From Verrucomicrobiota bacterium (lineage in GTDB: Bacteria > Verrucomicrobiota > Verrucomicrobiia > Chthoniobacterales > UBA10450), in assembly GCA_003219465.1 (NCBI GenBank), contig QHOX01000062.1:19719-77743 (forward strand): 58,025 nt of DNA. The letters are read 5' to 3'. The notes beneath the pieces were generated by a model. The model saw only the letters and a list, made by a program, of their open reading frames with translations, had not been told where the DNA came from and did no database searches. Both the position numbers and the translations under genes were made by a program. Below are positions 49,258 through 57,680 of this stretch, piece after piece. Each line of letters starts with the position of its first letter. The stretch's first letter is position 1.

Positions 49258-50286
49258 ATGCAGGCCGCGTTTTACCAATCCGAATCTGAGCAGCCGCATC
49301 CGGGCCGGGCGCGGGCGCTCATCAGAGCGCATCCAGAGGTTCGCGAGTTGATGGTGCGCAATCCGTGGACGGCGCTGATCGCACTCTCGATTGTGGTAAT
49401 GCAGACGGCGATTGCCTTCGGCATGGGCCAGTTGGGTTTCGGTTACTGGTGGCTAAGTCTGCTGATCGCCGTCTGCGTTGGCGCGTTCGGCAATCATGCG
49501 AACTACGTCATCATTCACGACGCCACGCACAACCTGATTTTCCGGAGCCCGAGCTGGAACAAAATGGTGGCCATCATTGCCGATCTGCCGAATCTCACTC
49601 CGGGCGCGATGGGCTTTCGCGTTTTTCACTTAAAACATCATTCCCATCAGGGCGACTACGAATGGGACGCAGACCTGGCGAACCATTGGGAAGCCCGCCT
49701 GGTAGGCAACTCATGGTACCGGAAAGCGATCTGGCTGATGCTGTTTCCATTTTTCCAGGTCACGCGTCCGCCTCGACTCAAAGCCATCAAGATGTGGGAC
49801 CGCTGGTTCTCGATGAATCTCGCATGCGCGGTCGCGTATGATGTAGCCGTCGTTTATTTCTGCGGTTGGGCTGGATTTCTTTATCTGGTATTCGCGTTTT
49901 TGTTTTCCATTGGGTTGCATCCGGTGGGGGCACGCTGGATTCAGGAGCATTACACTTACGACTTCGACCAGGAGACGTTCAGTTACTATGGGCCAATCAA
50001 TTGGTTGGCGCTGAACATGGGTTATCACAATGAGCATCACGATTTACCCTCGATCCCGTGGAACAATCTGCCGAAGCTACGGGCTATGGCGCCGGAGTTT
50101 TACAATAATCTGAAGTATCACTCCTCGTGGAGCCGCCTTCTTTTCCAGTTTGTCTTTGATAAGCGATACAGTCTCTATTCGCGAGTGGAGCGAATGAGAC
50201 AAAAGGACGGGTCGAACGCGACATCGCAGATGACCGGCCACGAAGCGGGCAATCTTGATCTGAGTGCGCGGCCCATTAGCTTTTAG
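49258..50286 (+). CDS. DES1-like dihydroceramide/sphingolipid desaturase
   Basis: The 342-residue membrane protein of the fatty acid desaturase fold has three histidine boxes: HDATHN (residues 87-92), HLKHHSH (124-130) and NEHHD (258-262), which bind the di-iron centre. Beyond the boxes the sequence follows the eukaryotic sphingolipid delta-4 desaturase DES1: an EHYTYDF segment, FSYYGPINWL, NMGYHNEHHDLPSIPWNNLP and the end KYHSSWSRLLFQFVFDKRYS. It therefore most likely puts a double bond in the sphingoid base of dihydroceramide. It is followed after two bases by the hydroxylase gene. The start ATG at 49258 gives an N-terminus of the usual length. Confidence 0.82.
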   Translation: MQAAFYQSESEQPHPGRARALIRAHPEVRELMVRNPWTALIALSIVVMQTAIAFGMGQLGFGYWWLSLLIAVCVGAFGNHANYVIIHDATHNLIFRSPSWNKMVAIIADLPNLTPGAMGFRVFHLKHHSHQGDYEWDADLANHWEARLVGNSWYRKAIWLMLFPFFQVTRPPRLKAIKMWDRWFSMNLACAVAYDVAVVYFCGWAGFLYLVFAFLFSIGLHPVGARWIQEHYTYDFDQETFSYYGPINWLALNMGYHNEHHDLPSIPWNNLPKLRAMAPEFYNNLKYHSSWSRLLFQFVFDKRYSLYSRVERMRQKDGSNATSQMTGHEAGNLDLSARPISF

Positions 50287-50288
50287 CC

Positions 50289-50936
50289 ATGGCGGATCAA
50301 CTAGACCAGAAAAGAGCGCTCTCGAAGCCGCCCCTGTACGTCTCGACGAAAAACGAAACCGTCCGGATGTTCGACAGCGATTTCATGGAATTCTTTTCAC
50401 GCGTGCATCCGGCGACTCCATTGATTCTCTACCTGCCGGTCGTCGGCTTTATGCTTTACGTGGCACTTTGGAGACAAGGATTCCCGGTATTAGTTGTCGC
50501 GGGATCTTTCCTGCTCGGTATGCTGCTCTGGACGCTGCTGGAATATCTGATTCACCGATACATTTTCCATTACGAACCGAAAACGCGTGTGGGAAAACGG
50601 CTTCACTACATCATTCACGGCGTGCATCACGATTATCCAAACGACGGGAGAAGGCTTGTTATGCCGCCGAGCATCAGTGTTCCGCTCGCATTTCTTTTTT
50701 ACGGCATGTTCCTGCTAATCTTCGGGCGCTTTGCGTCCAGTGTGTTCGCCGGATTGGTATTCGGCTACGTTTGTTACGACATGCTCCATTATGCCACGCA
50801 CCATTTTCCGATGAAACGCGGCGTATTGCTGTGGCTGAAGCAGTACCATCTTCGGCATCACTACAAAGATGATTATGCTGGGTACGGCATCAGCTCGCCA
50901 TTGTGGGACTACATCTTTCGGACGACCCGCCGGTAA
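50289..50936 (+). CDS. FA2H/Scs7-like sphingolipid fatty acid hydroxylase
   Basis: The 215-residue integral membrane protein is of the fatty acid hydroxylase fold with histidines in the order H89, H94, H106, H110, H113, H114, H167, H171, H187, H190 and H191. The stretch DGRRLVMPPSISVPLAFLF and FGYVCYDMLHYATHH, followed by LKQYHLRHHY and GYGISSPLWDYIF, follows human FA2H and yeast Scs7, which 2-hydroxylate the N-acyl chain of ceramide. It lacks the N-terminal cytochrome b5 domain of the eukaryotic enzymes, so electrons must come from another protein. The gene begins two bases after the desaturase stop, so the pair should be co-translated. Confidence 0.82.
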   Translation: MADQLDQKRALSKPPLYVSTKNETVRMFDSDFMEFFSRVHPATPLILYLPVVGFMLYVALWRQGFPVLVVAGSFLLGMLLWTLLEYLIHRYIFHYEPKTRVGKRLHYIIHGVHHDYPNDGRRLVMPPSISVPLAFLFYGMFLLIFGRFASSVFAGLVFGYVCYDMLHYATHHFPMKRGVLLWLKQYHLRHHYKDDYAGYGISSPLWDYIFRTTRR

Positions 50937-51172
50937 TCGTCGCATTCGTATCGCCCGTACATCCTGGTCGAACTGGAGGCGGCTTGGCCTGCCCTAAAAC
51001 CCTTGTCCTGAAATCCGAAAGCCCTTACATTGGTGCCCCGACACGAAACTCCACGATTTGTGGAAGCAGTGGAGAAACTCGTAAGGAATCTTAGTGAACG
51101 AGAAAATTGTCAGTTTTGCTGGGAAATACCGTCTGTGCAGAGGGTTGCGAGTGAAACGGAGTCTGAGGCTCG

Positions 51173-52429
51173 ATGAACGTTGATCCGGCAAAACTTAGTT
51201 TGAGTAATTTCCTGGGGGGCGAAAGCGACGACCCGCTGCAACCGCCCCCGAGCTTTACAAACTGGATGCAGCTCGGCGCTTGGGCTGTTGAATTGTACGA
51301 GCCCGAGCTTCTCTCGACTGCAGATGCCCGGACCACGATCAACTACGCCGGGAAACCACAATCAGTAATCAACTTCTGTTCGTACAATTATCTCGGTCTT
51401 GCGAATCACCCCGACGTGCTTGCTGCCGCGCACGAGGCGCTGCGCACTCACGGTCTGGGCGCATGCGGTTCGCCGATGCTTTCAGGCATGACCGATCTCC
51501 ATCGCGAACTCGAACGCCGCGTCGCGAAATTTCTCAACCGCGAGGACGCCATGCTTTTCAACAGTGGATTTGGCGGCGCGCTAGGAACGATTTCCGGCCT
51601 GTTGCGCAAAAGCGATGTCGCCATTCTCGATAATCGATCGCATCTGAGCCTTCGTGACGGCGCGATTTTGTCGCGATGTCGCACGGAGAAATTCGAGCAT
51701 AACGACCCCGCCTCACTCGACGTGGCATTGGCTCGGCAGAAAGGCCGGCGTCAACTCGTGGTGGTCGAAGGCATTTATTCGATGGACGGCGATTTTGGAA
51801 ATCTACAAGAGGTGATTGACGTGGCGGACGCGCATGGCGCGAGCGTTTTCATCGACGAAGCACATTCGATGCTCAGCTGCGGCCAACATGGCCGGGGAGC
51901 TGCGGAGCACTTCGGCGTCGAGGACCGCTTTCCTCTGGTGTATGGCACGTTTTCAAAAGCGTTCGGAGCATTGGGCGGTTTCGTCGCCGGTTCCAAGGAA
52001 ACGCTGCAATATTTGCGTTTCTATGCGCATCCGTACGTGTATTCGTGCGCGCTACCGCCGGTCGTCATCGCGGCAATTCTCAAGGCGCTGGAACTCGGCA
52101 CGAGCCAGCCCGAATTGCGCGCGAAGCTTTGGGAAAACGCCGAGTACTTCCACGCTCAGCTCGACAAGCTCGGATTCGACACGGGAGCATCGACAACTTA
52201 CGTGATGCCGATTGTGATTGGGGATCGCGAGCTGATGTACCGGCTCGGGCACGAGCTGCGGCGCCGCGGTCTTTGGGTTGCGCCGGTGGATTACCCGGCT
52301 GTCCCGCAAAATCGGATCTGTTTCCGCGCGTGTGTCACAGCCAAACACACCCGCGCGGATCTGGATGAGGCGTTGAATATTCTCGAGGACACTCTCGTTC
52401 CGGCGTTGCTGCAAAAGCAAAGCGCCTGA
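51173..52429 (+). CDS. Serine palmitoyltransferase-like aminotransferase (AOS family)
   Basis: The 418-residue PLP enzyme is of the alpha-oxoamine synthase family (serine palmitoyltransferase, 8-amino-7-oxononanoate synthase, KBL). It has NFCSYNYLGLANHP, GACGSPMLSGMTDLHRELE, FIDEAHSMLSCGQHGRG with D228/H231, and the PLP-lysine motif GTFSKAFGALGGFVAG (Lys262). The first 50 residues contain the N-terminal extension seen in bacterial and eukaryotic SPT rather than in KBL. It would condense serine with an acyl-CoA or acyl-ACP to 3-ketosphinganine. Context (desaturase, hydroxylase, acyltransferase and two CDP-alcohol enzymes) favours SPT over biotin synthesis. Its TGA overlaps the start of the next gene (ATGA). 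Confidence 0.8.
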   Translation: MNVDPAKLSLSNFLGGESDDPLQPPPSFTNWMQLGAWAVELYEPELLSTADARTTINYAGKPQSVINFCSYNYLGLANHPDVLAAAHEALRTHGLGACGSPMLSGMTDLHRELERRVAKFLNREDAMLFNSGFGGALGTISGLLRKSDVAILDNRSHLSLRDGAILSRCRTEKFEHNDPASLDVALARQKGRRQLVVVEGIYSMDGDFGNLQEVIDVADAHGASVFIDEAHSMLSCGQHGRGAAEHFGVEDRFPLVYGTFSKAFGALGGFVAGSKETLQYLRFYAHPYVYSCALPPVVIAAILKALELGTSQPELRAKLWENAEYFHAQLDKLGFDTGASTTYVMPIVIGDRELMYRLGHELRRRGLWVAPVDYPAVPQNRICFRACVTAKHTRADLDEALNILEDTLVPALLQKQSA

Positions 52430-53361
52430 TGATGTCTCAGCAGGTCGAGACACATCATTCCCGCATCGCAGCCACTTACAAGGCGCGTGAAGTGGAAGGC
52501 GCTCTCGACGTTTATTTCTACCGGCCGCTGGGATTTCGGTTAGCCGAATTTTTCGCGCATCTCAAGGTGACGCCGGCGGGCGTCAGTCTGCTGGCGGGTG
52601 TCTGCGGTGTCATTGCTGGGCATCTTTATTTTTACCGTAATCTCGTCATCAACATCGCGGGCATGGTTTTCCATGTCTGCGCGAATGCGCTCGATAATGC
52701 GGACGGTCAGCTTGCGCGGTTAACTCACCAGGAAAGCCGCAAAGGCCGAATCATTGACAGCGTTGCCGATCATTTGGTATTCGCGAGCGTTTACATTCAT
52801 CTGACGCTTCGCTATGCGTTTGCAGGTGCGTCGCCGGCGATCTGGGTTTTAGCGCTCGGCGCGGCGATCAGTCACGCGTTGCAAGGGGCAGCGGCTGATT
52901 ATTACCGCACGGCATTTCTCTACTTCACAGGCGGAGCACGCACCGACGTAAATTCCTCATCTGCATTGCGCTCGGATTACCGGAAATTGCGCTGGGATCA
53001 GAACCCGTGGGACAAGCTTCTTCTCGCGCTCTATTCGAATTTCACTCTGCAACAGGAAATGCTCGCGCCCCGTCTCAAAAAGCTGCGCGAGACGGCCAAC
53101 ACAATGTTCCACGGCCGAATCCCCGGCTGGCTGGAACAGCGCTATCGAGACGCTGCCGGCCACATGCTCAAGTGGTGGCGCCTGTTAATGACCAATACGC
53201 GCATGCTAATTCTATTTCTTCTGCTGTTTCTGGGGCAGCCGGTTTATTACTTCTGGTTCGAGCTCATCCCACTGAATTTGCTGTTCGTTTACCTGATCGC
53301 CCATCAGGAAAAAATGGCTGAATCGCTGGAGCGGCTCGTGGTGGCGCGACCTTCTGCGTAA
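52429..53361 (+). CDS. CDP-alcohol phosphatidyltransferase I
   Basis: The 310-residue membrane protein has the CDP-alcohol motif D-x2-D-G-x2-A-R-x8-G-x3-D-x3-D in the segment LDNADGQLARLTHQESRKGR and DSVADH. The motif residues bind metal and the CDP group. The rest has about six membrane helices, for example PAIWVLALGAAISHALQGAA and LILFLLLFLGQPVYYFWFEL. It would move a phospho-alcohol from a CDP-alcohol to a lipid acceptor, or the reverse. Translational coupling with the SPT-like gene (ATGA) and the acyltransferase behind it suggest that the acceptor is ceramide or a related lipid. The headgroup is unknown. Confidence 0.82.
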   Translation: MMSQQVETHHSRIAATYKAREVEGALDVYFYRPLGFRLAEFFAHLKVTPAGVSLLAGVCGVIAGHLYFYRNLVINIAGMVFHVCANALDNADGQLARLTHQESRKGRIIDSVADHLVFASVYIHLTLRYAFAGASPAIWVLALGAAISHALQGAAADYYRTAFLYFTGGARTDVNSSSALRSDYRKLRWDQNPWDKLLLALYSNFTLQQEMLAPRLKKLRETANTMFHGRIPGWLEQRYRDAAGHMLKWWRLLMTNTRMLILFLLLFLGQPVYYFWFELIPLNLLFVYLIAHQEKMAESLERLVVARPSA

Positions 53362-53372
53362 GCTTTCCACGA

Positions 53373-54509
53373 TTGATATTGAATATCGAAGTTTCAGAGG
53401 TGACATCGCGTCGTGAGCGCGATGTGTTCATCAAATTTCAGTGGCAAATTTATGCGAATGATCCGGTGTGGGTACCGCCGCTGATCATCGAACGCAAAAG
53501 GTTTCTCGATCACAAGCGGCATCCATTCTACAAGCATGGCGACGCCGCGCTATTCCTCGCGCGAAAGAACGGCAAAATCGCCGGTCGAATCATGGCCAGC
53601 GACGATCCGAATTACAATTCGCTGCACGAAACGAATGTAGGCTGTTTCGGCCTGTTCGAGTGCATCGACGATCAAGAAGTAGCCGCTGCGCTTTTTGACG
53701 CTGCGGCCAGTTGGCTTCGCAACAAAGGCCGAACCGAAATGATGGGGCCGATCGATTATTCAACGAATTACGTGTGCGGCCTATTGATCGACGGGTTCCA
53801 GTTTCCGCCTACGATTTTGACCGCGCACAACCCGCCATACTATCGCGAGTTGATCGAGAGCTGCGGCTTCGCGAAAGCGAAAGATTGGTACGCGTGGTGG
53901 TTTGCCGATCCGTCGAAGGCCGCGACGCATTTGCGACGGCTCGCAACGCGCTTGAAAACGCGTTGGCCTGTCACCATTCGTCCGGCAAATCTCAAGGACC
54001 TGCGCGGCGAGAGCAGGCGGCTTCGTCAAATTTTTAATCAGGCTTGGAAAAAGAACTGGGGTTTTGTGCCGTTCACCGAAGCCGAGATCGAGTTCATGAC
54101 GGAGGAACTGAAGCCGCTGATCGTGCCGGAGTTTGCCTGGATCGCCGAGATAGGAAATGAACCCGTTGGATTCACATTATGCCTGCCGGACATCAACGTT
54201 GTGCTGCGCGACCTGAACGGCCGACTCACTCGCTTCGGCCTGCCAATCGGCCTTATTAGACTGCTCTTCTACAAAAAGCGTATTCGAAAAGGACGTTTAA
54301 TCGCTCTCGGCGTTATTGAAAAATATCGCCGCGCCGGAATAGCGGAGATGCTTGTGCTGCGGGTCATGGAGGAAACGATGATCAAGCGCGGGATCACGGG
54401 CGAACTAAGCATGACGCTCGAAGACAATTACATGATCAACCGCTTTCTCGAAGCCATCGGAGCCCAGCGCTATAAGACCTATCGCATCTTCAAAAGGACA
54501 ATGACCTGA
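53373..54509 (+). CDS. GNAT-fold acyltransferase, candidate bacterial ceramide synthase
   Basis: The 378-residue protein has no membrane helix, and its C-terminal third has the GNAT acyl-CoA site: FAWIAEIGNEPVGFTLCLPD, then ALGVIEKYRRAGIAEMLVLR (the R-x-x-G-x-A loop) and ITGELSMTLEDNYMINRFLE. The N-terminal half begins FQWQIYANDPVWVPPLIIER and includes a PPTILTAHNPPYYRELI segment. In Caulobacter, ceramide synthase is a GNAT-type N-acyltransferase rather than a TLC-type one, and an enzyme of this fold inside an SPT operon is the best candidate for the same step. The start is TTG at 53373. The stop overlaps the start of the next gene (ATGA). Confidence 0.72.
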   Translation: MILNIEVSEVTSRRERDVFIKFQWQIYANDPVWVPPLIIERKRFLDHKRHPFYKHGDAALFLARKNGKIAGRIMASDDPNYNSLHETNVGCFGLFECIDDQEVAAALFDAAASWLRNKGRTEMMGPIDYSTNYVCGLLIDGFQFPPTILTAHNPPYYRELIESCGFAKAKDWYAWWFADPSKAATHLRRLATRLKTRWPVTIRPANLKDLRGESRRLRQIFNQAWKKNWGFVPFTEAEIEFMTEELKPLIVPEFAWIAEIGNEPVGFTLCLPDINVVLRDLNGRLTRFGLPIGLIRLLFYKKRIRKGRLIALGVIEKYRRAGIAEMLVLRVMEETMIKRGITGELSMTLEDNYMINRFLEAIGAQRYKTYRIFKRTMT

Positions 54510-55216
54510 TGAGCAAACCTCAAGACGGTTTCGTTTCACGATTTCTGAATCGGCCGATTTCGCGGCGGATAACAAGTTTTCTGCTCAAGTTTCCGCTTCA
54601 TCCCAACGCGTGGACGATATCGATCTTTGTTTTGCCGGTGATCGCAAGTGTATTCTTGGCGCGCGGTGATTACGTTAGCGTCATCATTGGCGCGGCTGTT
54701 TTTCAGGCGTTCAGTATTCTTGATGGATGTGACGGCGAGATTGCGCGCGCCAAAAATTTGGAATCGAAGTTCGGGGAACGTTTGGATTACTTCTGCGATT
54801 TTCTGGCAAGCCTTATCTATGTTCTCGCTCTTAGCCTGGGGCTTCATCATTTAGCCGAAGGAATCGTCTGCGCCGGCTTGATCACGGCTAACGAATGGCT
54901 TCTGCGCGGTGGCAAGGACGAAATGCAGATGGTTTCGGCAAAGCTGCATGAGTCGTTTTATGCGAGGCACCACGGAATGATTGGCCATTCCGGTTTGCTG
55001 AATTTCGGTGAACGATTTGTGTGGTGGATCTTCCAGCTGACCAAGCGGGACATGGCCATCCTCGTTTTCCTCGTGCTTGCGTTACTCGGCCTGGCTGTCT
55101 GGATCCTTCATCTGTGGACGGTTGTTGCCGCTGCAAGCCTGATCGTCACCGTGATCGCCACGATCAGATCCGGCATGGGTCATGGCGATGTCGTAACGCG
55201 CGAGCCGCGATCGTAA
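54509..55216 (+). CDS. CDP-alcohol phosphatidyltransferase II
   Basis: The 235-residue membrane protein has the complete CDP-alcohol motif in LDGCDGEIARAKNLESKFGE and DYFCDF (D-x2-D-G-x2-A-R-x8-G-x3-D-x3-D). It has six membrane helices (for example FVLPVIASVFLARGDYVSVI and FLASLIYVLALSLGL). The gene is the last of the coupled group that starts at 51173. It differs in sequence and length from the first CDP-alcohol enzyme, so the two probably use different headgroups or different lipids. Inositol, glycerol and ethanolamine are all possible. A nucleotidyltransferase pseudogene lies downstream on the other strand. Confidence 0.82.
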   Translation: MSKPQDGFVSRFLNRPISRRITSFLLKFPLHPNAWTISIFVLPVIASVFLARGDYVSVIIGAAVFQAFSILDGCDGEIARAKNLESKFGERLDYFCDFLASLIYVLALSLGLHHLAEGIVCAGLITANEWLLRGGKDEMQMVSAKLHESFYARHHGMIGHSGLLNFGERFVWWIFQLTKRDMAILVFLVLALLGLAVWILHLWTVVAAASLIVTVIATIRSGMGHGDVVTREPRS

Positions 55217-55248: not shown

Positions 55249-55790
55249 TCAAGTCAGCGCGCTCTGTTGCAAGAGCCTTCGGGATCTGGCGATTTGGCTC
55301 TCCGCATGTTGCAGCATCTGCGGCGTATCCAGATCCTGCCACCAGCTCTCGCCGATGTCGATGGCCTGGACTTTACTATCGCGGGCCATCAATCGAATTG
55401 CATCAGCCAGGCTGCAATCGCTTTGGCCGCTGATGGATTTCGCTCGCTCGAGATACTCAAAGATCCAGCGGGCAAATGAACAAGCCGGTATCGATCGCAT
55501 CGTAAATCCGCGGATCTTTGCCGATGCTGACGACCCTGTTTCCGCGCCTTTGAACCTTCATCGCATCATCCAAATCGCGAATTGACTCGAGTTTTCGATC
55601 CACGGCGATGTTGAGCATGTCAGGATTCGATGAATCGATTAAAAGATCCACAATCGCATTGTCGAACAAATGATCGCTCATCGTCAAAAGAAACGGCGAC
55701 GTTATGTGATTAGCGGCTGCGAGGACCGATACGCCGTTTTGCTTTTGCCAATCGGGATTTTCGATGAAGCAGGGCTCAAGCCCGGACGGA
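55249..55790 (-). pseudogene. Nucleotidyltransferase, truncated and frameshifted
   Basis: A first frame reads ENPDWQKQNGVSVLAAANHI, TSPFLLTMSDHLFDNAIVDL, DMLNIAVDRKLESIRDLDDA, KDPRIYDAIDTGLFICPLDL and then stops. The next frame goes on FEYLERAKSISGQSDCSLAD and ESWWQDLDTPQMLQHAESQI to 55249. The whole matches the gene at the right edge (57670-58025), which is not broken there. The front with the GxGxR nucleotide-binding loop is missing, because the radical SAM gene begins at 55879. In the family, sugar-phosphate or choline-phosphate cytidylyltransferases make the CDP-linked headgroup used by CDP-alcohol enzymes. The 5' limit is approximate. Confidence 0.75.
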
Positions 55791-55878
55791 ATAGTGCGCG
55801 ACCAAAACAGGCGTCGCGAGGGCCCATTTTTGCGTCGGGAGAAGATTGCCGCTACACTGAGGATCTCATCAAAGCTGC

Positions 55879-57021
55879 ATGAAGATTCTGAAACACGTCC
55901 GCCGTGAATTTTCCGGCTACAATATTTTGGAATCGGGCAAGCGTCTGCTCGATCGCAAACCGCTGCAATGCAGTCTTTATGTCACGGATCATTGCAATCT
56001 CGATTGTGCCTATTGCACGGAGTACGACAACAGCCGGCCGCATCCCACCCTCGACGATTTGAAAAAATGGGTTCGGAAGATTCGCGAGCTTGGCACTATG
56101 CGCATTGCTCTCGTCGGCGGTGAGCCGCTCACGCATCCGAATATTGTCGAACTCGTTCGCTACTGTCGCGAGCTCGGCTTTGCCACGAGTCTGACCACCA
56201 ACGGTTTCCTCCTGACGCGTAAACTCGTCGTGCAACTGGAAGATGCCGGCCTGCAGGTGATGCAGATCAGTGTTGATCGGATGACACCGAGTTCGATTAC
56301 GAAGAAGTCCTTCAAGACGATTTTGCCGAAGCTCGATTATTTTCGTCATTCAAAAATCAGTCTCCATATCACCGGAGTGATTTGCGCCGACACCTTGCCC
56401 GAAGCGCAGGCCGTGCTCGAGACCGGTTTGTCGCGCGGAATTCCCACCGAAGTTCGCCTCGTGCATGCGGATCCTTTGCATCGGTTTCGCGTCGATCGCG
56501 GGCGGCGTGAGGAACTCGAACGTTTTATCGATTCGATGATCGAGCGAAAGCGCCGCGGGGAAAAAATTCACACCAGCGAGGCGATCCTTAATTACCAACG
56601 GAGCCTCCTCCGAGGCGAGTACGTCGAGTGGACGTGTATGGCCGGCTACAAATTATTCTTCGTTTCTGCGCAAGGGAAGTTTTGGATTTGCAGCATGGTG
56701 CACACGGACAAGCACATCATGGACGTGACGCTGGACGACCTTTACGCCAATTATCACAAGAAATCCTGCCAGGAAGGTTGCGGTGTTTACTGTGCTGTGA
56801 GTGCCTCACTGCTGGTCGAGAAACCAGTGCGCGTGCTCGGCCAAGAAATTATCGCGCGCGCCAAGCGCCTGCCGTCCATGTTGCATCCGTCTTCAAGTCC
56901 GCGAATCAATAACCCGACGTCCTCCGGCGTTACAAATCCAGATGGAACGCACAAGATGAACGGCAGCACTAACAGCGGCCCATCCGCAGATGATTGCGTA
57001 ACTTTGCGAGAAGGCACCTGA
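55879..57021 (+). CDS. Radical SAM protein with SPASM-like C-terminus
   Basis: The 380-residue protein has the iron-sulfur motif VTDHCNLDCAYCTEYDN (C-x3-C-x2-C, about residues 38-45), GGEPLTHPNIVELVRYCREL, TTNGFLLT and a C-terminal region with extra cysteines (CMAGYKLFF, WICSM, CQEGCGVYC), as in radical SAM proteins with auxiliary clusters. The substrate is unknown; radical SAM enzymes of this general type occur in lipid or polyol modification as well as in peptide maturation. The Pro/Ser-rich C-terminal 50 residues look unstructured. A truncated relative follows at 57132. The ATG at 55879 fits the family start. Confidence 0.8.
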   Translation: MKILKHVRREFSGYNILESGKRLLDRKPLQCSLYVTDHCNLDCAYCTEYDNSRPHPTLDDLKKWVRKIRELGTMRIALVGGEPLTHPNIVELVRYCRELGFATSLTTNGFLLTRKLVVQLEDAGLQVMQISVDRMTPSSITKKSFKTILPKLDYFRHSKISLHITGVICADTLPEAQAVLETGLSRGIPTEVRLVHADPLHRFRVDRGRREELERFIDSMIERKRRGEKIHTSEAILNYQRSLLRGEYVEWTCMAGYKLFFVSAQGKFWICSMVHTDKHIMDVTLDDLYANYHKKSCQEGCGVYCAVSASLLVEKPVRVLGQEIIARAKRLPSMLHPSSSPRINNPTSSGVTNPDGTHKMNGSTNSGPSADDCVTLREGT

Positions 57022-57131: not shown

Positions 57132-57680
57132 TTGCGCGGCGTTTCGACGCGGAAGGTTCTCAACAACCTGAAGAAGCGCTTGCAATGGTTGCGGGACCAC
57201 GCCCGGTTTGAAGTGGTTATCTGTGCGGTCATCGGCGCATGTCCTCCCGAGGAAGCTGATGAAGTCGTCTCCTTTGTGCGTCAGCTTGGCTTTGGCGCCC
57301 GCGTGCTTCTCGTGCACGATAGCCAGGGGCAACTCAAGTTGAGCAGTGAAGACCTGAAGGCGTTCGAGAACATCGTAGACAAGCTGCCAAGGAAATGGCC
57401 GGAATTCTCGGGCTATCGCAGGGAGCTCGTGCGCGGTCGCCCCGCACCATTCAAATGTCGCGCCGACAGCCGCTACCTTTACGTGGATGAATACGGGAAA
57501 GTGAATTGGTGCTCGCAGATCCGGAACTTGTGGTCCAAAAACCTGATGGATTACACCACCAACGATTTACGCGAACAGTTTTACCGCTATAAATCTTGTC
57601 ACGCGACGTGCACCCTCGGATGCGCCCGCTCGGCCAGCCAGCTCGACAACTGGCGCTCTCAACCAGGATTCAGCTCCTAA
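57132..57680 (+). pseudogene. C-terminal half of a second radical SAM protein
   Basis: The 182-residue frame, with only a TTG start, reads RKVLNNLKKRLQWLRDHARF, VVICAVIGACPPEEADEVVS, RVLLVHDSQGQLKL, and then PAPFKCRADSRYLYVDEYGK and SCHATCTLGCARSASQLDNW. This is like the second half of a radical SAM protein with auxiliary clusters. The C-x3-C-x2-C part is missing, so it is probably an inactive fragment. The 110 bases between it and the previous gene hold no recognisable front half. It is a different paralogue from the one at 55879, and its end is 10 bases inside the next gene. Confidence 0.65.

Follow-up and report, generated by a model that had tools for sequence, protein, structure and literature searches.

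Can a bacterium assemble a ceramide and then finish it with enzymes of the kind known from eukaryotes? Ceramides with Delta4 unsaturation and ceramides with 2-hydroxylation are usually taken as a sign of eukaryotes. The question is raised by six consecutive genes on the plus strand of a 58,025-nucleotide stretch of DNA from a Verrucomicrobiota bacterium of the Chthoniobacterales (GenBank assembly GCA_003219465.1, contig QHOX01000062.1, positions 19,719 to 77,743), hereafter the window, which lies at the end of contig C370 in a fragmented 4.19-Mb metagenome-assembled genome (MAG; 89% complete, 5.5% estimated contamination). An original prediction, made from the DNA sequence, had read these genes as a single ceramide pathway. 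All six are present at that site, each matching the Pfam domain expected for it at a score above the gathering threshold, and we consider it likely that the locus makes a ceramide-type lipid bearing a phospho-headgroup. Gene families and active-site motifs can be read directly, as can gene order and comparative linkage; the assignment to a ceramide-type pathway is well supported, with the comparative evidence as its decisive support.

Gene families and active-site motifs

The first gene, DES (49258..50286), encodes a 342-residue membrane desaturase resembling DES1, of the sphingolipid Delta4 type. The protein matches FA_desaturase (PF00487, 97.9 bits; cut-off 29.7) and, at its N terminus, the sphingolipid-specific Lipid_DES domain (PF08557, 29.2 bits; gathering score 23). 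Its His boxes, of the forms HX3H, HX2HH and HX2HH (H87DATH91, H124LKHH128 and H257NEHH261), are invariant in the family alignment, with D88 replaced by E in one row. A sequence search of the PDB returned no solved DES1 relative, and no viral relatives of DES, sought as an outside comparison, were confirmed. Two nucleotides downstream lies HYD (50289..50936), whose 215-residue product carries FA_hydroxylase (PF04116, 70 bits) and aligns over residues 33-212, histidine motifs included, with yeast Scs7, a ceramide 2-hydroxylase whose structure has been solved (4zr1/4zr0; E 3.6e-32). PF04116 is the only domain found in the Pfam scan, so HYD comprises the catalytic domain alone and has no fused N-terminal cytochrome b5 domain; judged by other family members, its true start may lie about 11-16 codons further downstream. 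The Lipid_DES domain, the His boxes and the match to Scs7 thus bear out the DES1-like and Scs7/FA2H-like identities proposed for the two enzymes, from which the position of the double bond and the hydroxylation itself are predicted.

The third gene, AOS (51173..52429), follows after 236 nucleotides and encodes an alpha-oxoamine synthase (Aminotran_1_2), probably SPT-like, that would join an amino acid, most likely serine, to an acyl thioester. AOS keeps the catalytic His, Asp, His, Lys and Arg, and the motif around its pyridoxal-phosphate lysine is GTFSK, as in SPTs, whereas the sampled KBLs and ALAS have GTLGK and most BioF-type enzymes GTLSK. In two trees it falls on the SPT side (support 93/95 and 90/90), tentatively placed on a very long branch. 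The AOS proteins that adjoin DES in Beijerinckiaceae (loci L143, L155 and L165) form a divergent clade of their own, apart from the SPT clade in both trees.

GNAT (53373..54509, with a TTG start) encodes a tandem-GNAT N-acyltransferase (Acetyltransf_1) that is a candidate bacterial ceramide synthase. Its AlphaFold model is a confident tandem GNAT (pLDDT 84.5), and a fold search recovered tandem GNATs at Z 24-20 (best Z 24.1, rmsd 3.5, 304 aligned residues) and, at Z of about 15, N-myristoyltransferases, which are long-chain N-acyltransferases; no ceramide synthase appeared among the top rows of that search, which shows nothing for or against the assignment. Full-length identity to GNATs of sphingolipid-type clusters is 37-43%, including 38% to a Rahnella GNAT that lies beside an AOS, ACP, SDR and acyl-AMP ligase set and 37% over 99% of the length to WP_019463172.1 of Roseomonas mucosa. 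The Roseomonas region (NZ_CP025058) encodes an acyl-AMP ligase, SDR, ACP, AOS, lipid kinase, CDP-alcohol enzyme, LptF/LptG, sterol-desaturase-family protein, GNAT and nucleotidyltransferase; its AOS passes the curated SPT cut-off (613 against 500 bits), and its gene content matches the set reported for the sphingolipid region of Caulobacter (PMC11324152). As an observation in its own right, this skin commensal bears the whole Caulobacter-type region on a plasmid (NZ_CP025058.1:408000-434000), where the ceramide-synthase-like GNAT is annotated 'hypothetical protein'.

The remaining two genes encode CDP-alcohol phosphotransferases. CDP1 (52429..53361), a putative headgroup transferase, matches CDP-OH_P_transf (PF01066, 47.8 bits) with the motif D-x2-DG-x2-AR-x8-G-x3-D-x3-D intact, and CDP-alcohol phosphotransferases filled the top Foldseek rows for its AlphaFold model, a weak recovery of the superfamily (best E 3e-3). 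CDP2 (54509..55216; PF01066, 41.9 bits) has a complete CDP-alcohol motif, read in the sequence, and is closest to the DIPPS domain of IPCT/DIPPS (NF041135, 78 bits, a partial match); in other genera it is longer by an N-terminal extension. The AOS/CDP1 and GNAT/CDP2 junctions are one-base overlaps (TGATG), and 11 nucleotides separate CDP1 from GNAT. The proposal that four of the six genes are coupled therefore holds for AOS-CDP1-GNAT-CDP2 but not across the wide HYD/AOS junction. A promoter scan gave a single weak match on the reverse strand and was uninformative.

Conserved gene order

The order DES-HYD-AOS-CDP1-GNAT-CDP2, followed by a nucleotidyltransferase and a KdsR-like SDR, occurs on about ten distinct contigs, and on about six more a fused nucleotidyltransferase-like/CDP-alcohol protein replaces CDP2 (the CDP2b variant), where contigs recurring in more than one locus set were counted once. 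The named relatives that carry this locus are Candidatus Udaeobacter, Spartobacteria and Chthoniobacterales MAGs, which bears out the assignment of the window to Verrucomicrobiota. A search for the same order elsewhere in Verrucomicrobiota, suggested as a check on the original prediction, thus finds it across Candidatus Udaeobacter and related Chthoniobacterales, and because the same order recurs in so many related genomes the arrangement is not a matter of chance. An Udaeobacter-type cluster at 75-77% identity is also found on QIAB01000086.1 (L119), labelled 'Acidobacteria gp1 AA140', which is probably misbinned or mislabelled.

DES has a strong match in 39 of the 61 members of the window's family and in none of the other families of the order; among 288 genomes sampled evenly over the phylum it was found in four, three of them in the window's family. 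Such patchiness would fit horizontal spread. DES and HYD form a separable add-on module, since several genera retain AOS-CDP1-GNAT-CDP2 and lack both.

Related associations recur well outside this family. Other families of the order have AOS adjoining GNAT, several of them with a CerR-like extended SDR as well, and a different verrucomicrobial family has the order HYD-GNAT-CerR-DES. Beijerinckiaceae and related Alphaproteobacteria carry AOS-GNAT-DES on 13 contigs, among them those of Methylocella silvestris, Methylocapsa acidiphila, M. palsarum, M. aurea and Beijerinckia. An uncultured Saprospiraceae MAG (L156:6814-15353) encodes, in a row, a CDP-alcohol enzyme, DES, HYD, a PAP2-family protein, SPT, GNAT, a CerR-like reductase and myo-inositol-phosphate synthase, and its DES, HYD and GNAT share 53%, 47% and 42% identity with those of the window; this is apparently an entire locus of the inositol-phosphoceramide type that includes DES1- and Scs7-like genes. 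Many Bacteroidota and Ignavibacteria carry DES alone, and 14 of 16 such genomes tested have an SPT-model match of at least 474 bits, of which only two exceed the strict cut-off.

Putative headgroup genes and a KdsR-like reductase beyond the window

The locus exceeds six genes. Next, on the opposite strand, come genes for a nucleotidyltransferase of the CDP-inositol type and for a KdsR-like ketoreductase. In the window the nucleotidyltransferase is represented by a broken remnant (55267..55798, minus strand), which has lost its first ~71 residues and changes frame near residue 184, and by the C-terminal part of an intact copy that runs to the contig end (57670..58023, minus strand); the two share 72% DNA identity. 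The remainder of the intact copy lies on contig C80 of the source genome, whose end shares 186 bp with the window end at 100% identity. The same contig carries the KdsR-like SDR, a 267-residue protein starting ~0.4 kb beyond the window end, for which the model of KdsR, the 3-ketodihydrosphingosine reductase (NF049977), is the second-best NCBIfam match over its full length. A ceramide pathway requires a ketoreductase, and this gene, absent from the list in the original prediction, would supply a putative one.

The nucleotidyltransferase most resembles CTP:inositol-1-phosphate cytidylyltransferase (2xme, 4mnd). Despite this affinity and that of CDP2, the activated alcohol is probably something other than inositol, because inositol-phosphate synthase (MIPS, PF07994) is absent from 57 of 58 genomes; it is likewise absent from the 89% complete source genome. 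De novo inositol is thus unlikely, which weakens the case for an inositol headgroup. Three related loci (L068, L073 and L080) have an insert between AOS and CDP1 (L080:7020-11529) in which we read, from the sequence, genes for a HAD-type hydrolase, a second nucleotidyltransferase, an aminotransferase-like protein and a Gfo/Idh-like oxidoreductase; it probably specifies another headgroup.

Proposed pathway

In the scheme that we propose, AOS would start the pathway by condensing a long-chain acyl thioester with an amino acid (most likely serine), forming a 3-keto sphingoid base. The tandem GNAT would N-acylate this product, as the bacterial ceramide synthase does, and the KdsR-like SDR would reduce the 3-keto group, the two steps following in either order. 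The DES1-like desaturase could then desaturate the long-chain base, probably at C4, and the Scs7/FA2H-like enzyme could 2-hydroxylate the N-acyl chain. Finally, the nucleotidyltransferase would make a CDP-activated alcohol from which CDP1 and CDP2 would move the phospho-alcohol onto the C1 hydroxyl of the ceramide. The individual reactions, the amino acid used, the site of the double bond and the nature of the headgroup are thus predictions from gene content. That the genes act as one pathway with a ceramide-type product is supported, and so is the assignment of GNAT to the bacterial ceramide-synthase kind, which has the backing of a homologue from a sphingolipid region of the Caulobacter type and of synteny across several phyla.

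Alternative explanations

Several observations weigh against this scheme, and most of them concern AOS. The protein falls below all three curated NCBIfam SPT cut-offs (322/500, 316/640 and 256/670 bits) and scores slightly higher with the bioF model (341 bits; cut-off 426); the loop past its catalytic His is family-specific, reading HLSLRDG where SPTs have HASIIDG; and trees constrained to group it with KBL (p-AU, approximately unbiased test, 0.466) or with BioF-type enzymes (0.273) are not rejected. Beyond AOS, the KdsR-like SDR reaches 170-182 bits against a curated cut-off of 400, several relatives lack DES and HYD, and the product is predicted from genes rather than from lipid analysis. 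The description of AOS as an SPT-like enzyme therefore stands for its catalytic residues and GTFSK motif but not for its model scores or for a firm place among SPTs in the trees, and given those scores and the groupings that the trees allow, serine is an inferred substrate. That AOS serves biotin or threonine metabolism in this genome is unlikely because a KBL-type paralogue (in the source genome) and BioF-type paralogues (in relatives) exist elsewhere; the tree alone cannot prove an SPT. AOS could instead use another amino acid, such as alanine, glycine, cysteate or homoserine, so that DES, HYD and GNAT would act on a 1-deoxy-, sulfono- or other amino-lipid. The divergence of AOS and its distinctive loop leave room for this idea, as does its match to a solved cysteate-C-fatty acyltransferase (28eh, 213 bits), and 1-deoxy- and sulfono-ceramides are known in bacteria (PMC11334938). 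We nevertheless regard it as improbable, for solved SPTs outscore 28eh (258 and 230 bits), and two CDP-alcohol enzymes with a nucleotidyltransferase suggest a primary hydroxyl, which would come from serine and not from cysteate or alanine.

A larger share of doubt, still well on the unlikely side, attaches to the headgroup, since CDP1, CDP2 and the nucleotidyltransferase might build that of a glycerophospholipid, outside sphingolipid synthesis. CDP-alcohol enzymes mostly act on CDP-diacylglycerol or diacylglycerol, and the near absence of MIPS also favours this possibility; yet CDP1 and CDP2 directly adjoin or overlap the AOS and GNAT genes and remain beside them even where DES and HYD are lost, and pairs of a nucleotidyltransferase and a CDP-alcohol enzyme also occur in the sphingolipid loci of Caulobacter (PMC11324152) and Bacteroides (PMC9246714). 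It is harder still to believe that DES and HYD act on other membrane lipids, as free or phospholipid acyl chains, and merely hitch-hike at a ceramide operon. The 236-nucleotide gap before AOS, the loss of both from genera that keep the other genes and the lone DES of many Bacteroidota and Ignavibacteria would all fit such hitch-hiking, but DES or HYD independently adjoins AOS, GNAT or CerR genes in three other lineages, DES carries the Lipid_DES domain and Scs7 is itself a ceramide hydroxylase. Eukaryotic contamination or an assembly artefact, which the fragmented MAG and its estimated contamination might bring to mind, is ruled out for practical purposes because dozens of independent genomes, obtained in separate projects, carry the same locus; the genes also have no introns, show bacterial-type overlaps and lie in a region of steady GC.

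The end of the window

Two further genes lie downstream on the plus strand. One encodes a radical SAM/SPASM-like protein that occurs in some cluster variants (55879..57021; PF04055, 71.8 bits). The other, an N-terminally truncated second radical SAM gene (57132..57680), matches residues 144-317 of an intact 322-residue relative at 88% and has no cysteine motif. Because intact radical SAM relatives belong to the CDP2b variant, the window end suggests a recombinant of two cluster variants.

Significance

A broader reading, which we offer tentatively and at somewhat less than an even chance, is that bacteria of several phyla run eukaryote-like ceramide finishing, with DES1-type Delta4 desaturation and FA2H-type 2-hydroxylation, and that Udaeobacter adds a Kennedy-like headgroup system with a non-inositol CDP-alcohol, giving an undescribed sphingolipid class and a major source of soil ceramides. 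Candidatus Udaeobacter is among the most abundant soil bacteria. A survey of the soil lipidome reported 101 sphingolipids, some of them 2'-hydroxylated, which were treated mainly as fungal, with unexplored soil bacteria named as possible makers (PMC9969633), and some of these 'fungal' ceramides could be bacterial. In the Black Sea, about half of the ceramides carry a single double-bond equivalent in their base (PMC11334938), and the DES genes that cluster with SPT and GNAT are direct candidates for unsaturation of this type. The bacterial share of unsaturated and 2-hydroxylated ceramides in soil and in the Black Sea would thus become testable, and because strains exist for several named species that carry DES (Methylocella silvestris, Methylocapsa acidiphila and Beijerinckia sp.), the idea can be tested now.

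Comparison with known systems

Bacterial ceramide synthesis by Spt, bCerS and CerR and the idea of CDP-polyol headgroups are already known (PMC11087976, PMC11324152, PMC9246714). With the spt, cerR, cerS (bcerS), acpR and aasR genes and the phosphosphingolipid region of Caulobacter crescentus (PMC11324152, PMC11087976), the locus shares an AOS, a GNAT-type N-acyltransferase, an NAD(P) reductase, a nucleotidyltransferase and a CDP-alcohol enzyme. It has no adjoining ACP or acyl-AMP ligase, its reductase is a KdsR-like classical SDR whereas that of Caulobacter is the extended-SDR CerR, and it adds the DES1-like and Scs7-like genes; acyl hydroxylation in Caulobacter is attributed to CC_0202, an enzyme of the DesA family (PMC11324152). 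With the inositol-phosphoceramide pathway of Bacteroides and its alternate cluster (PMC9246714) it shares a nucleotidyltransferase, a CDP-alcohol transferase and a proposed Kennedy-like CDP-polyol headgroup route, but almost all relatives of the window lack MIPS, and the headgroup genes lie inside the window's ceramide operon. The putative reductase resembles the 3-ketosphinganine reductase BT_0972 of Bacteroides thetaiotaomicron (PMC9278070) by way of the KdsR model, a full-length, second-ranked match far below the curated cut-off.

Our search of the open literature turned up no description of a bacterial sphingolipid locus with a DES1-type desaturase or an Scs7/FA2H-type hydroxylase, which is weak evidence, as most subscription papers lay outside our coverage. 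The closest counterparts of these two enzymes are eukaryotic: DEGS1 (DES1) shares the Lipid_DES and FA_desaturase domains, and yeast Scs7 and animal FA2H share the Scs7 catalytic domain with aligned histidines. The window's genes, in contrast, are bacterial and operon-encoded, and the predicted hydroxylase has no fused cytochrome b5. What appears to be new is therefore the presence of DES1- and FA2H-type genes in a bacterial sphingolipid locus, as a variant on known bacterial ceramide synthesis.

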